From positions 1 through 46,701 of the forward strand of contig JAFDGZ010000015.1 in the NCBI GenBank assembly GCA_019309045.1: DNA of 46,701 nucleotides, written 5' to 3'. This stretch comes from Deltaproteobacteria bacterium (GTDB lineage: Bacteria > Desulfobacterota > Syntrophobacteria > BM002). Positions 30,016-39,247 of the stretch are shown piece after piece (position 1 is the stretch's first letter; the number at the start of each line of letters is the position of its first letter). A model generated the notes under the pieces. That model did not search any database, was not told where the DNA came from, and worked only from the letters and a program-made list of their open reading frames with translations. The translations under genes were made by a program, and so were the position numbers.

Positions 30016-30480
30016 TTACAGCTCTTCCAGTTGAAGCTGGTGTTGGATCTCTATACATCCTAAAACGCTCTGTGCTGCTGGACAGAGAGAGAGGTACGCT
30101 TCCAGTGCCTCCTGGGCCTGGTTGAATTTTTCCGCGGGCAGCTTCAGGGAATAATGGACCTGAATACGGGTGATTTTCAACACACCATTCACATCTTGGA
30201 TGTACCCCTTCACCCTGGCATTGAAAACGCCCTGGTGAGTGCGAATACCATCTTTGGCCAGCACTGTGGCCAAGGTACCCATCATTCAACCGCCAACAGC
30301 GCCGACGATGTGATCCAGGGTTGCTGCATGCTCTTCTTTAGGCTCCAACTTGTAAAAGTCTTTTATTCCTCCGTGAATGCCGTAATACACGGGCTCAGCA
30401 AAACCCTCTATTACAGCCTTTCTCGTTGGGCCCTTTTCTCTAGTAATAGTAATCTTGGATTCATGGACGATTTCTGCCAT
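30016..30480 (-). CDS. OsmC-family protein with in-frame TGA: probable selenoprotein
   Basis: ATG at 30480 with AGGAGG 7 bases upstream. Reading on the - strand, the frame runs to a TGA at 30288-30286 and continues, in the same frame, to the stop at 30016; read through, it gives 154 residues. The residues before and after the TGA join as one OsmC/Ohr-type domain: ...TLDHIVGAVGG-(TGA)-MMGTLATVLAKDGI..., where the TGA sits at residue 65, the position of the first catalytic Cys. The second redox Cys is present in YLSLCPAAQSV (about residue 133). OsmC proteins reduce organic and lipid hydroperoxides. A hairpin 12 bases downstream of the TGA (30254-30273) matches a bacterial SECIS. The likely reading is selenocysteine; a nonsense mutation with downstream re-initiation at ATGATG is the alternative. 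Confidence 0.8.
30254..30273 (-). promoter_or_regulatory. Candidate bacterial SECIS hairpin
   Basis: On the - strand, TTGGCCA (30273-30267) pairs perfectly with TGGCCAA (30260-30254) around the six-base loop CAGTGC, which includes the G-U dinucleotide expected in the apical loop. The loop begins 20 bases after the in-frame TGA at 30288-30286, within the usual bacterial SECIS spacing. It lies wholly inside the coding sequence, as bacterial SECIS elements do. Confidence 0.65.
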
Positions 30481-30486
30481 ACTCAA

Positions 30487-30769
30487 TCCTCCTCAGTCGC
30501 AATGAAAGGCCAATACCTACTTTTATAGTAGTTTTTTATAACACACTGGAGCTAGACGTCCAAGGCCCTGCCTCCAGAGCAAATGATATGATCATTGTCT
30601 TGAATTACCGCGGTTGTCTATGCTGTCAGCATCTTTTGACTCAAAGAAATGAAAAAGAAAAGAGGAGAGTTGAGCAACTCGGGGTTCATCAGACTTGTCA
30701 AAGAGAGCCTCCTCGTGTTAAGAGTGTCTGCACCATCACAACTTTCGCGGACGAGGATTGGAGTTAAGG
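30487..30769. promoter_or_regulatory. Divergent promoter region of the OsmC gene and the 30770 gene
   Basis: About 280 AT-rich bases between divergent genes. On the - strand TATAAA near 30520-30526 could be a -10 element for the OsmC gene; it overlaps the inverted repeat CTACT-TTTAT-AGTAG (30517-30531), a possible operator. Towards the right-hand gene, GAGTTG-AG-CAACTC (near 30668-30681) is a second small inverted repeat. No gene is supported here. Confidence 0.35.
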
Positions 30770-33949: not shown

Positions 33950-36900
33950 CTAATCGCCCTCGAGATAACGCTGCAGATGGCGGGCCGTGTGTGAGTAGGC
34001 CGTACACTGCAGCAGCTCCTCGGGAGAACCGCTGGCCACCAGGCGGCCGCCCTCGTCGCCGCCTCCTGGCCCCAGATCTATAACGTAGTCGGCGGCCTTG
34101 ATCACCTCCAGGTTGTGTTCAATTACCACAACAGTGTGTCCCGCGTCCACCAGTGTCTGCAGGGCCGCCACCAGCCTCTCGACGTCAGCAATGTGCAACC
34201 CGGTGGTGGGTTCATCCAGAAAGTAGATTGTCCGCGCTCTCCGATTGCCTGCCAGTTCCTGCACCAGCTTGATTCGTTGCGCTTCTCCACCAGAAAGCGT
34301 TGGACTCGGCTGGCCGAGACTGAGGTAGCCCAGGCCCAATTTAAGCATGAAATCCAGAGGACGACTTATTTTCAATATTGGTGCAAAGAAGGCTGCCGCC
34401 TCTTCTACGGTCATGGCTAGAACCTGGGCAATGTTCTTGCCTTTGTATCTTACTGCCAGAGTCTCACTGTTGTACCGACTGCTGTTACACTGCAGGCAGC
34501 GCACGTAGATATCCGGCAGAAAGGCCATTTCCACCCGGTTCAGCCCCTGGCCTTTGCATTCCGGACAGCGACCCGCAGCCACGTTGAAAGAGAAGCGTCC
34601 GGCAGTATATCCTCGTGCTCTCGCCTCTGCCGTGGCTGCAAAAAGGCGACGAATTTCTGCAAAAATCCCTACATAGGTAGCTGGCACTGACCTGGGCGTC
34701 CTGCCGATTGGGCTGTGGTCCACCCGCACCACTCTATGCAGGTTCTGCCAGCCCAGAAGCTCATCGTACTCGCCAGCATGGTGCTGTGTTTTGTGCAGTT
34801 CATTCGACAAAGCCTTGAACAGAGTTTCTTCCACCAAGGTGCTCTTGCCCGACCCCGAGACACCTGTAACACAGGTAAGCGTGCCCAGGGGTATCGCCAC
34901 CTCGAGATTTCTCAAATTGCGGGCTCTAGCACCCCGCACAATGAGCCACTGTCCATGCCGCGGTCCTCTCCGCCGGGAGGTCAGCCGTCGCCTCCCTCTG
35001 CCGTTGAGGTAAGCGCCGGTGACTGATTCTGGCGTACCTCTGAGGTCCGCCAGGCTTCCCTGCGCTACCAATCTGCCGCCGAAGCGACCCGCTCCTGGTC
35101 CAAGATCTATCAGATAGTCTGCTTTCCTGATGGTCTCCTCGTCATGCTCAACCACTACGATGGTGTTTCCCTTGTTTTTCAGACCAACAAGAGTCTCCAG
35201 CAAGCGCTCGTTGTCGCAAGGGTGCAGCCCTATGGTGGGTTCATCGAGAATGTAGCACACACCCCTCAGGTTTGACCCCAGCTGAGCAGCCAATCTGATT
35301 CTCTGAGCCTCTCCTCCGGAAAGGCTGTCAGCAGCTCTGTGAAGTTGCAGGTAGCCGAGGCCCACCCGCTGGAGAAACTGCAAGCGCTGAACAATTTCTT
35401 CCATGGCTGGGCCTACTATGGCCGCCTCTCTGCCGTGAAAACGCCAGCTTTTCAGCAGGTGTGTCGCCGATTTCACCGATTGGCGACACACGTCCCAAAT
35501 GGTGCTGCCATGAATACGCACATTCAAGCCGAACTTGTTGAGTCGTGCGCCTCTGCACTGCGGACACGGCACCTCTCTGCCATCTTCCTGCAGACGACCG
35601 AGCCCTTCGCACCGTTGACAGGCCCCGTGCCTGCTGTTGAAAGAAAAGAGCCTGGGATCGAGAGTAGGAAAACCCAAATGGCAGCGAGCACAGGTCAACC
35701 TCTTGCTGTAGTAACGCTCGAATCCTTTACCGTCCCAGGCAATGACGGTTCCATCACTGAGCAGCAGGGCCTCGCGGACCGCTGTTTTCAGTCGATCTTC
35801 CTCAGCTTCAGACAACTCGGGCCACTGCTGCACTACCACCTCGATATCGTGTTCATGGAATCTCCTGATGATCGGCATAGGGTCCAGGGGCTGCAACCGG
35901 CCGTCGACACGCACCAGGTCATATCCCTGTCTCTTTGCCTGCTTCAGCACCTCCCGGTGATAGCCCTTCCGCGCTGTTACTTTTGGCGCCAGCAGGACGA
36001 GCGGTTTGCCCAGGAAAATTCGGTAGAGGTCGGCGGCGATAACTTCCGGGGTGGCCACGCTAATAGGATCACCGCACTGTGGACAGTAAGGCTCGCCTAC
36101 CTTGCTGTAAAGCAGCCGCAGATAGTGATAGATTTCGGTTATGGTAGCAACTGTGGAGCGAGGCCCCATCAAGCTGCTTCGTTGATCTATAGCCACCGTT
36201 GGCGGCACACCGGAAATCTCGTCTGCCTCTGGTCGATCCCGATTTGGCAGGTACTGGCGGGCATAAGTCGACAGGCTGTCCAGGTAGCGCCGCTGACCCT
36301 CGGCAAAGAGAATGTCAAAGGCAAGAGTCGTCTTGCCGGAGCCTGAAACACCTGTAATTACCACCAGTTGATCCCGCGGCAGGTCCAGAGAAAGTCCCTG
36401 GAGGTTGTGCTCTCGCGCCCCTCTGATCTTGATGACCCTGCCGTTGCTGCTGGGGCGGGGCATCTGAATCGGCATGGAGCGGGAGCTTCTTCCTTGCCGA
36501 AAAAGCCTGAGAAAACGTCCCGTATGGGAAACCTCCGACTCAGCCACCTGCTCTGGAGTGCCTGCTGCCACGATTTCTCCGCCCCGGTCTCCACCTTCCG
36601 GTCCTAGATCTATCACATAGTCGGCAGAGTCGATCACCTCCAGGTTGTGTTCCACCACCACCACGCTCTGTCCCTGCTGCACGAGACGGTGCAGTGCTTC
36701 TAGCAGCACGCCCACATCATCACCGTGCAGACCTGTGGTGGGCTCATCAAGCAGCAGAAGTGCTCCCTTTTTGCTCGCTTCTTTTAGGGAGCGGGCCAAC
36801 TTCAATCGTTGACTCTCCCCGCCGGAAAGTGTGTTCAAAGGCTGGCCCAGGCGCAGGTAATTCAGCCCAACTTCCTGGAGCGGTTGCAAGGCAGCCGCTA

Positions 36901-39247
36901 CCTTTTCCTGATCCGCAAACAGATTTACTGCCTCCTGCAGGGTGAGGTCGAGCAGGTCGCCAATTGAGCGGCCTCGATAGAGAATGTCCAGAACCTCCTG
37001 ACGGTAGCGCTTCCCCTGGCAGGCTGGACACCTGAGGTAGAGATCGGCCAGGAACTGCATCTCCACCCGTTCGTAGCCTTCTCCCCTGCAGGCCTCGCAT
37101 CTGCCAGCCGCCGTGTTGAAGGAGAAATGCGCTGGTCCATATCCTCGCAGTTTGGCTTCCGCTGTATTGGCATAAAGCCTCCTGATAAAAGAGAGAGCCC
37201 CGCTGTAGGTGAGCAGGTTTGCCCGTGGCGTCCGGCCGATCGGCTGCTGATCCACCAGCACCACATCACTGAGCAGGTCAAAACCTCTTATGTCAGCGCA
37301 ATAACCAGGCTTGTCCGTGGAAACGCCGCGGTACCTCAACCAGTTGCGGTACAGGACGTCCTCAACCAGAGTGCTCTTGCCTGACCCAGAAACCCCGGTT
37401 ACTGCCACCAGCAATCCCAGAGGAATGTCTACCTGAATGTTGCGCAGATTGTGCACCCGTATACCCTTCAAATGGAGCCAGCGGCCTGCCCGGGGCCTCC
37501 GGCGGAGCCGTCTGGCAGTCTGCCTGCCGCTCGTCAGGTAACAGGCAGTCCGCGATTCAGTTGCCTGGCAAATTCCCGAGGTAGGCCCAGCATAGACCAC
37601 CTTGCCGCCGCACTCTCCAGCATCCGGCCCCAGGTCTACCAGGTAGTCGGTCTGTTGAATTATAGTTGGCTCGTGTTCCACCACCACTACGGTATTTCCC
37701 TGGGCGGTGAGGGCTTTGAGAATTCTTGTAAGTCTGTGATTGTCCCGGGGATGCAAGCCCACACTGGGTTCATCCAGCACGTACAAGGTGTTCACCAGGG
37801 GTGAACCCAGGGCCCTGGTGAGGTGAACTCTCTGCACCTCACCACCAGCCAGAGTTCTTGACTGACGATCCAGAGTCAGGTAGCCAAGGCCAACTTCCAC
37901 GAGATAAGACAACCGTCTGACCACCTCGCTGCAGACCAGACTGGCAGCAGGATCCTCGGAATACCTTGCGGTCAGCTCCTTCAAAAAAGCAAGAGACCTG
38001 TCTATAGACCAGCTGTTCAATTGTCCAATATGGACACCATTGCAGCGGTAGAGCAGCGCCAGCGGTTTAAGGCGGCTGCCCCCGCAGGCGGGACACCTGA
38101 GATAGGCCCTGTAGCGGGACAGAAAAACCCGAACATGCATCTTGTAGGTCTTGCCCTCCAACCAGCGGAAGAAGCCGCGCACACCATAGAATTCGTCACC
38201 CTCATCGATCACAGCCTGCTGCTGCTCAGGAGAAAGCTGTTTGAAAGGTACATCTGTGGGAATGCCCCTGGATCGACAGAAATCCATGAGGTCATAGTAT
38301 TCGCCGCGCCTGGTGCCCCAGGGCCGAATTGCTCCTGCAGCCAGTGATATATTTCTATCAGGAATTACCAGATCCAGGTCCACGTCAATTATACGCCCGA
38401 AGCCCCGACAGGTTTCACAGGCTCCCAGAGGGCTGTTAAAGGAAAACAGGTGGGGAGATACAGGCGGATAAGCGATGTTGCAGTTGGGACAATTTCTTGC
38501 TGTAGAGAAGTTTCTTCTTTCTCCGGCAGCAGTAATAACCGTTGCCCTGCCATTGCCGTAGTGCAGCGCCAGCTCCAGACTGTCGAGGATTCGTTTTTTC
38601 CTGCCCGCGGTCCACGTTACCCTGTCTACTACAATATCCAGCGGTCTGTCCGCAGGCAGTTCATCTTCTTCAAGGGTCTTCAATAAGCCTTGGTGCAGGA
38701 ATCTACGAAAGCCATGCCTGTGCAGATAGCGCCGAGCTGTTTCGTCATCCTCCTGGTACAGAGGAAAGACAATGAAGGCAGGACCATCACCAGCCATCTG
38801 GGCAACAGCCTGCCAGATGCTTTCCGGTGAGTCCTCCTGCACAGGTTGGCCGCACTTCTCGCAGTGAAGTGTTGCTTTCCTGGCATAGAGCAGTTTCAGG
38901 TAGTCGCTGATTTCAGTCATGGTGCCCACTGTTGACCGACTGCTCTTGACTGGATTGCCCTGTGGTATGGCGATGGCTGGTGGTATGCCAATGATTTCCC
39001 GAACCCTGGGTCGGTCCAACCGCTCTAGAAACTGCCGGGCATAAGGAGAAAATGTCTCCACGTAGCGACGCTGGCCTTCCGCATAGAGAACCTCCATGGC
39101 CAAGCTGGACTTGCCGGAGCCGCTCACACCGGTAATGGCGATGAGCTGTTCTCTCGGCAGGTGCAGGCTTATGCTTTGCAAATTGTTCTGGCTGGCCTCG
39201 ATGATGTGTATGTATCTCTCATTGGCTATCTGTCGCGGAACCATCAT
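33950..39247 (-). CDS. uvrA: Tandem-fused UvrA excinuclease subunit (two UvrA proteins in one chain)
   Basis: 1765 residues with no internal stop: about twice a normal UvrA (~940). The first UvrA-like unit spans ~1-930, the second ~940-1765. Four Walker A motifs GVSGSGK(S/T) are at 40-48, 618-626, 966-974 and 1462-1470, each with its own signature: LAGGEVQRV, then LSGGESQRL, LSGGEAQRI and LSGGEAQRI. Walker B pattern LDEP appears four times. Zinc modules of UvrA type are present in both units (CPNC...CETC and CEAC...CPAC in the first; CARC...CQRC, CPQC and CPEC...CLQC in the second). UvrA dimers detect bulky DNA damage and load UvrB. A fused pair could work as a built-in dimer or pair two specialised copies. 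No fusion linker domain of another type was seen. Confidence 0.92.
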   Translation of the reverse strand: MMVPRQIANERYIHIIEASQNNLQSISLHLPREQLIAITGVSGSGKSSLAMEVLYAEGQRRYVETFSPYARQFLERLDRPRVREIIGIPPAIAIPQGNPVKSSRSTVGTMTEISDYLKLLYARKATLHCEKCGQPVQEDSPESIWQAVAQMAGDGPAFIVFPLYQEDDETARRYLHRHGFRRFLHQGLLKTLEEDELPADRPLDIVVDRVTWTAGRKKRILDSLELALHYGNGRATVITAAGERRNFSTARNCPNCNIAYPPVSPHLFSFNSPLGACETCRGFGRIIDVDLDLVIPDRNISLAAGAIRPWGTRRGEYYDLMDFCRSRGIPTDVPFKQLSPEQQQAVIDEGDEFYGVRGFFRWLEGKTYKMHVRVFLSRYRAYLRCPACGGSRLKPLALLYRCNGVHIGQLNSWSIDRSLAFLKELTARYSEDPAASLVCSEVVRRLSYLVEVGLGYLTLDRQSRTLAGGEVQRVHLTRALGSPLVNTLYVLDEPSVGLHPRDNHRLTRILKALTAQGNTVVVVEHEPTIIQQTDYLVDLGPDAGECGGKVVYAGPTSGICQATESRTACYLTSGRQTARRLRRRPRAGRWLHLKGIRVHNLRNIQVDIPLGLLVAVTGVSGSGKSTLVEDVLYRNWLRYRGVSTDKPGYCADIRGFDLLSDVVLVDQQPIGRTPRANLLTYSGALSFIRRLYANTAEAKLRGYGPAHFSFNTAAGRCEACRGEGYERVEMQFLADLYLRCPACQGKRYRQEVLDILYRGRSIGDLLDLTLQEAVNLFADQEKVAAALQPLQEVGLNYLRLGQPLNTLSGGESQRLKLARSLKEASKKGALLLLDEPTTGLHGDDVGVLLEALHRLVQQGQSVVVVEHNLEVIDSADYVIDLGPEGGDRGGEIVAAGTPEQVAESEVSHTGRFLRLFRQGRSSRSMPIQMPRPSSNGRVIKIRGAREHNLQGLSLDLPRDQLVVITGVSGSGKTTLAFDILFAEGQRRYLDSLSTYARQYLPNRDRPEADEISGVPPTVAIDQRSSLMGPRSTVATITEIYHYLRLLYSKVGEPYCPQCGDPISVATPEVIAADLYRIFLGKPLVLLAPKVTARKGYHREVLKQAKRQGYDLVRVDGRLQPLDPMPIIRRFHEHDIEVVVQQWPELSEAEEDRLKTAVREALLLSDGTVIAWDGKGFERYYSKRLTCARCHLGFPTLDPRLFSFNSRHGACQRCEGLGRLQEDGREVPCPQCRGARLNKFGLNVRIHGSTIWDVCRQSVKSATHLLKSWRFHGREAAIVGPAMEEIVQRLQFLQRVGLGYLQLHRAADSLSGGEAQRIRLAAQLGSNLRGVCYILDEPTIGLHPCDNERLLETLVGLKNKGNTIVVVEHDEETIRKADYLIDLGPGAGRFGGRLVAQGSLADLRGTPESVTGAYLNGRGRRRLTSRRRGPRHGQWLIVRGARARNLRNLEVAIPLGTLTCVTGVSGSGKSTLVEETLFKALSNELHKTQHHAGEYDELLGWQNLHRVVRVDHSPIGRTPRSVPATYVGIFAEIRRLFAATAEARARGYTAGRFSFNVAAGRCPECKGQGLNRVEMAFLPDIYVRCLQCNSSRYNSETLAVRYKGKNIAQVLAMTVEEAAAFFAPILKISRPLDFMLKLGLGYLSLGQPSPTLSGGEAQRIKLVQELAGNRRARTIYFLDEPTTGLHIADVERLVAALQTLVDAGHTVVVIEHNLEVIKAADYVIDLGPGGGDEGGRLVASGSPEELLQCTAYSHTARHLQRYLEGD

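Follow-up and report, generated by a model that had tools for sequence, protein, structure and literature searches.

A predicted OsmC-family selenoprotein with selenocysteine at the first redox-cysteine position

An OsmC-family reading frame with one internal TGA

The window, by which we mean the whole stretch of 46,701 nucleotides analysed here (contig JAFDGZ010000015.1 of an uncultured anaerobe, a Deltaproteobacteria bacterium of the Desulfobacterota), carries an OsmC-family gene on its minus strand, at positions 30480–30016. The gene is a single frame of 154 codons plus TAA with one internal TGA. From an ATG at 30480–30478, preceded by a Shine–Dalgarno-like AGGAGG 7 nt upstream (30488–30493), the frame runs through 64 sense codons to the TGA at codon 65 (30286–30288) and then through 89 codons to the terminal TAA (30018–30016), all on the minus strand. 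An earlier note on this DNA had placed the gene at the right coordinates but gave no strand; a plus-strand reading of 30016–30480 yielded no sensible protein and was dropped. As that note anticipated, standard annotation would split the gene: the list of open reading frames contains only an 89-amino-acid piece, which begins with the ATG immediately following the TGA.

Read through, the 154-amino-acid product scores 39.6 bits against PF02566 (curated cut-off, 27.5), which places it in the OsmC superfamily, and it is the sole PF02566 protein found in its 3.9-Mb genome. The domain extends over both flanks of codon 65, bearing out the proposal of one domain in one frame with a single TGA. In a phmmer alignment with Thermus OsmC (1ukk), residue 65 lies opposite the Cys of the ‘GC’ motif, whereas residue 133, encoded by TGT at 30082–30084 on the minus strand, lies opposite the ‘CP’ Cys; the second redox Cys is therefore retained, in a CP motif. 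Across five OsmC sequences from divergent subfamilies, the only identical columns were M1, P47, C/U65 and C133. The predicted model of the window protein (mean pLDDT 83) has E. coli OsmC and Ohr as its best matches in the PDB, with a TM score of about 0.5 for a monomer modelled without its partner chain. Alignments and monomer model together support both redox positions and an OsmC/Ohr fold.

The neighbours of the gene encode a phosphofructokinase and a sensor kinase, and no redox genes were seen beside it in the window. Rfam gave no match within the window, and no intrinsic terminator was found near the gene. Elsewhere in the window, a minus-strand frame of 1,765 amino acids (33950–39247) contains UvrA interaction and DNA-binding domains and several ABC stretches, and looks like a double-length UvrA.

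Conservation of the TGA, its hairpin and the selenocysteine machinery

Among relatives about 58–73% identical to the window protein, nearly all of which carry the motif UMMGT, codon 65 is TGA in 130 of 130 subfamily loci (99 of 99 distinct genes) and never TAA, TAG, TGC or TGT. The terminal stops of the same 99 genes are mixed (40 TAA, 39 TGA and 20 TAG) while codon 65 is always TGA, so a stop that merely ended translation would not be expected to stay TGA. The naive probability of an all-TGA column is 8 × 10^−28 over 67 clusters below 85% identity, a value from which phylogeny is not fully removed. Each full-length subfamily match in the 60 relatives searched has one TGA, and so has each of the 37 matches from the 395 phylum genomes searched. 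Across 84,980 species genomes, a scan made with the alignment located 161 encoding loci, the best 80 of which were analysed; a scan of genome contigs with the single protein had found no relative. No Cys orthologue within the subfamily appeared in the 395 Desulfobacterota genomes or in the best 80 of the 161 loci. Cultured carriers of the TGA-containing gene include Desulfacinum infernum DSM 9756, D. hydrothermale DSM 13146, Desulfopila and Desulfosarcina. A ‘Myxococcota’ group in the tree output apparently came from records titled ‘Deltaproteobacteria’ and was disregarded.

Both sides of the TGA are under purifying selection (median dN/dS of 0.12 before it and 0.28 after it), and such coding constraint on both flanks is what a UGA-encoded selenoprotein calls for. 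A pseudogene or sequencing error, for which a Cys codon (TGT or TGC) would need to change by only one base, is exceedingly improbable, and is refuted at the sequence level by the conserved TGA and the conserved downstream frame: the same TGA recurs in 99 distinct genes drawn from numerous assemblies as well as from cultured strains (Desulfacinum, Desulfopila and Desulfosarcina), dN/dS remains well below 1 after it, and no further stops or frameshifts follow. None of the observations that the earlier note had said would count against a selenoprotein occurred: a genome lacking selA, selB or tRNA-Sec, close relatives with a random nonsense codon and further decay at this site, or a TGA turning into TGC or TGT on resequencing.

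Downstream of the TGA, at 30254–30273 on the minus strand, lies a SECIS-type hairpin with precisely the geometry described before: a 12-nt spacer, a 7-bp stem (TTGGCCA/TGGCCAA) and a six-base loop containing GU (CAGUGC). The surrounding 48-nt stretch folds at z = −3.3 relative to shuffles. Spacer, stem length and loop size are the same in relatives, in which the commonest loop is CGGUGC; position 2 of the loop is G in 88 of 99 and positions 3–4 are GU in 79 of 99. The window loop has A instead of G at position 2 and retains the GU, and the element has the expected form of a hairpin directly 3′ of the UGA with a G in a small apical loop. Over 82 distinct sequences the stem pairs at 97.4%, whereas shuffles reach 92.9 ± 0.4% and slid controls no more than 52%, and 29 double-changed cells were counted against 8.6 in shuffles. 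Exchanges include the outer pair (C–G in 52, U–A in 22) and the third pair (G–C in 70, C–G in 6), and in a Leu codon of the 5′ arm the synonymous choice between TTG and CTG tracks the 3′ arm (P = 1 × 10^−7, uncorrected for phylogeny). The SECIS check proposed for this gene thus returned a hairpin that also covaries.

These data bear on a second alternative, in which translation would stop at the TGA and resume at the following ATG, giving two coupled cistrons that encode half-OsmC chains. ATG ATG directly follows the TGA in 97 of 99 genes, and the 89-amino-acid frame of the window begins at just such an ATG. Restart would, however, tolerate TAA or TAG, and yet neither occurs in any of the 99 genes, whose terminal stops use all three codons. 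The break would also fall inside the central helix (residues 55–75 of the model), exactly at the redox Cys, the hairpin covaries, and sister proteins are unbroken with Cys at that position. We consider coupled cistrons very unlikely.

The machinery for reading UGA as selenocysteine is present in the source genome, where all four components that the earlier note had listed for a search were found: a tRNA-Sec with anticodon UCA, SelA (3.6 × 10^−159), SelB (above its cut-off) and SelD. These genes lie on contigs other than that of the window, in a 211-contig assembly with an estimated contamination of 3.5%. SelD, which is commonly a selenoprotein, has an in-frame TGA of its own here (G000:C39:27299-28225). 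Of 60 relatives, 59 have SelA, as do 11 of the 13 other carriers checked, non-Desulfobacterota bins among them. SelA was not found in the remaining 2 of 13, Desulfosarcina cetonica JCM 12296 (a 7.1-Mb draft) and an Opitutaceae metagenome-assembled genome. The Opitutaceae contig may be mis-binned, because its OsmC is almost the same as one from Acidobacteriota. In the D. cetonica draft, which contains a TGA-bearing osmC, either an assembly gap or a loss could explain the missing SelA.

Taken together, the sequence evidence strongly supports the recoding of UGA-65 as selenocysteine, which we regard as almost certain, and the window gene very probably encodes an OsmC-family selenoprotein with selenocysteine at its active site.

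Active site and possible function

A Cys counterpart for residue 65 is available outside the window subfamily. In a sister subfamily, two proteins from different genomes that are 56% identical differ at this site: L046 (G055:C155) has Cys (GGCLTGTF) and L161 (G080:C19) has Sec (AGULTGTF), providing a clean, naturally occurring Sec/Cys pair that could be compared biochemically. The alignment with 1ukk, the five-sequence alignment and this pair all place the TGA on the Cys column, as had been claimed. By alignment to the family, Sec65 and Cys133 probably act as a redox pair.

In the mechanism that we propose, SelB carrying Sec-tRNA(Sec) would bind the mRNA hairpin just downstream of UGA-65, and selenocysteine would be inserted there instead of termination. 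Sec65 would then serve as the peroxidatic residue, reducing a hydroperoxide and becoming a selenenic acid that Cys133 would resolve to a selenenyl-sulfide, to be re-reduced by a thiol or a flavin-linked reductase.

The earlier note had described the product as a peroxidase with Sec replacing the catalytic Cys. The placement of Sec at the Cys column holds. Family membership and neighbouring genes make peroxidase function plausible; measured against the NCBI subfamily cut-offs, the protein does not qualify as a canonical OsmC or Ohr. It misses TIGR03562, the OsmC peroxiredoxin subfamily proper (15.8 versus 85.8 bits), and TIGR03563 (SACOL1771; 18.4 versus 166 bits). NCBIfam has no model for the window subfamily, and annotation pipelines are therefore likely to truncate the gene. 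In Ohr/OsmC hydroperoxide reductases, we take an active-site Arg and Glu to have roles beside the reactive Cys, as in the Ohr literature. R14, R20, E50 and D56 are each at least 98% conserved among subfamily relatives. Where Ohr and OsmC proteins have a Glu ahead of the reactive Cys, the window protein has Leu55/Asp56, and this Glu is not clearly conserved.

The protein could instead be a selenoprotein without peroxidase activity: a thiol/selenol oxidoreductase, or an OsmC-like protein that handles persulfides or scavenges electrophiles. The wide margins by which it misses the OsmC and peroxiredoxin cut-offs and the lack of an evident canonical Glu suit this alternative. Most neighbourhoods of subfamily genes are not conserved, and the hosts, for the most part related to sulfate reducers, presumably have a rich sulfur chemistry. 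Against it stand the retention of both redox positions and the genes found nearby in several clades. In one Desulfobacterales clade, rubrerythrin lies within about 20 nt downstream and an AhpF-like flavoprotein upstream; most members of another clade have an Rrf2-family regulator that ends 13–25 nt before the osmC start. These neighbours, present in some relatives, fit a role in oxygen and peroxide defence in anaerobes. We therefore hold a non-peroxidase to be a real but lesser possibility, and somewhat favour peroxidase activity, suggested by family and neighbours, as the physiological role.

Relation to known OsmC proteins

OsmC selenoproteins as such are already known. The Sargasso Sea data yielded 3 predicted sequences with the motif UxxT (Zhang et al. 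2005, PMC1088965), and the GOS data yielded 5 (2008, PMC2398784). A 2026 inventory of 119 families enters OsmC once, as UxxT, and counts proteins as separate subfamilies when they differ in Sec motif or in the position of Sec (PMC13188914). The UMMGT subfamily is not in that inventory and, set apart by motif from the published sequences, is possibly a new subfamily by the inventory’s own rule.

Inspection of the remaining PF02566 matches with a TGA in the phylum revealed a separate OsmC clade (for example, G173:C62:105789-106226; 50 bits) that retains the first Cys (for example, GCATHM) and has the TGA at the second, resolving-Cys position of the CP motif (KRHUPLYGS). This holds for 14 of 14 genes found, from 14 genomes in 8 genera and down to 52% identity. 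In these genes the TGA is followed, at a distance of 13 nt, by the start of a hairpin such as CGGTCGC-GGTC-GCGACCG; all 9 of their genomes checked have SelA. A clade with Sec at the resolving-Cys position is likewise not in the 2026 inventory (PMC13188914). Separately, one Desulfobacterota genome (G090) has two further OsmC genes whose TGA stands in place of the first Cys, with the motifs UMFS (L158) and ULLT (L159). The latter agrees with the published UxxT, so Desulfobacterota too contain a protein of the UxxT type; judging by the motif, we infer that the published sequences would belong to the group of L159.

Whether the UMMGT proteins form a Sec-obligate subfamily with no Cys orthologue, unlisted in the current inventory, spread Desulfobacterota-wide and in scattered bins labelled Acidobacteriota, Actinomycetota, Methylomirabilota and Nitrospirota, and acting as a selenium-dependent hydroperoxide reductase alongside rubrerythrin, is to us an evenly balanced proposition. 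What had been an observation of three to five metagenome sequences now becomes a subfamily with well over 100 loci, for which genomic context, cultured carriers and a SECIS that covaries are available, and this makes the use of Sec in OsmC testable at the bench. If the subfamily indeed never reverts to Cys, as it seems, its chemistry would appear to require selenium.

Compared with known systems, the window protein shares its fold and both redox positions with E. coli OsmC and Ohr (1qwi, 1n2f) and Thermus 1ukk, but these are Cys-based and about 14–22% identical to it, and their active-site Glu is not clearly common to both. The sister subfamily of L046 and L161 is closer (32–34% identical) and has in common the motifs HA(A/T)T(L/I)D...C/U-x-x-GT and CP, but it has Cys members, whereas the window subfamily showed none. 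The published marine-metagenome UxxT selenoprotein (PF02566) is alike in its OsmC domain, in Sec for the redox Cys and in a bacterial SECIS after the UGA; the window motif, UMMGT, is however UxxG rather than UxxT, and the UxxT-motif protein L159 shares just 16% identity with the window protein in alignment.
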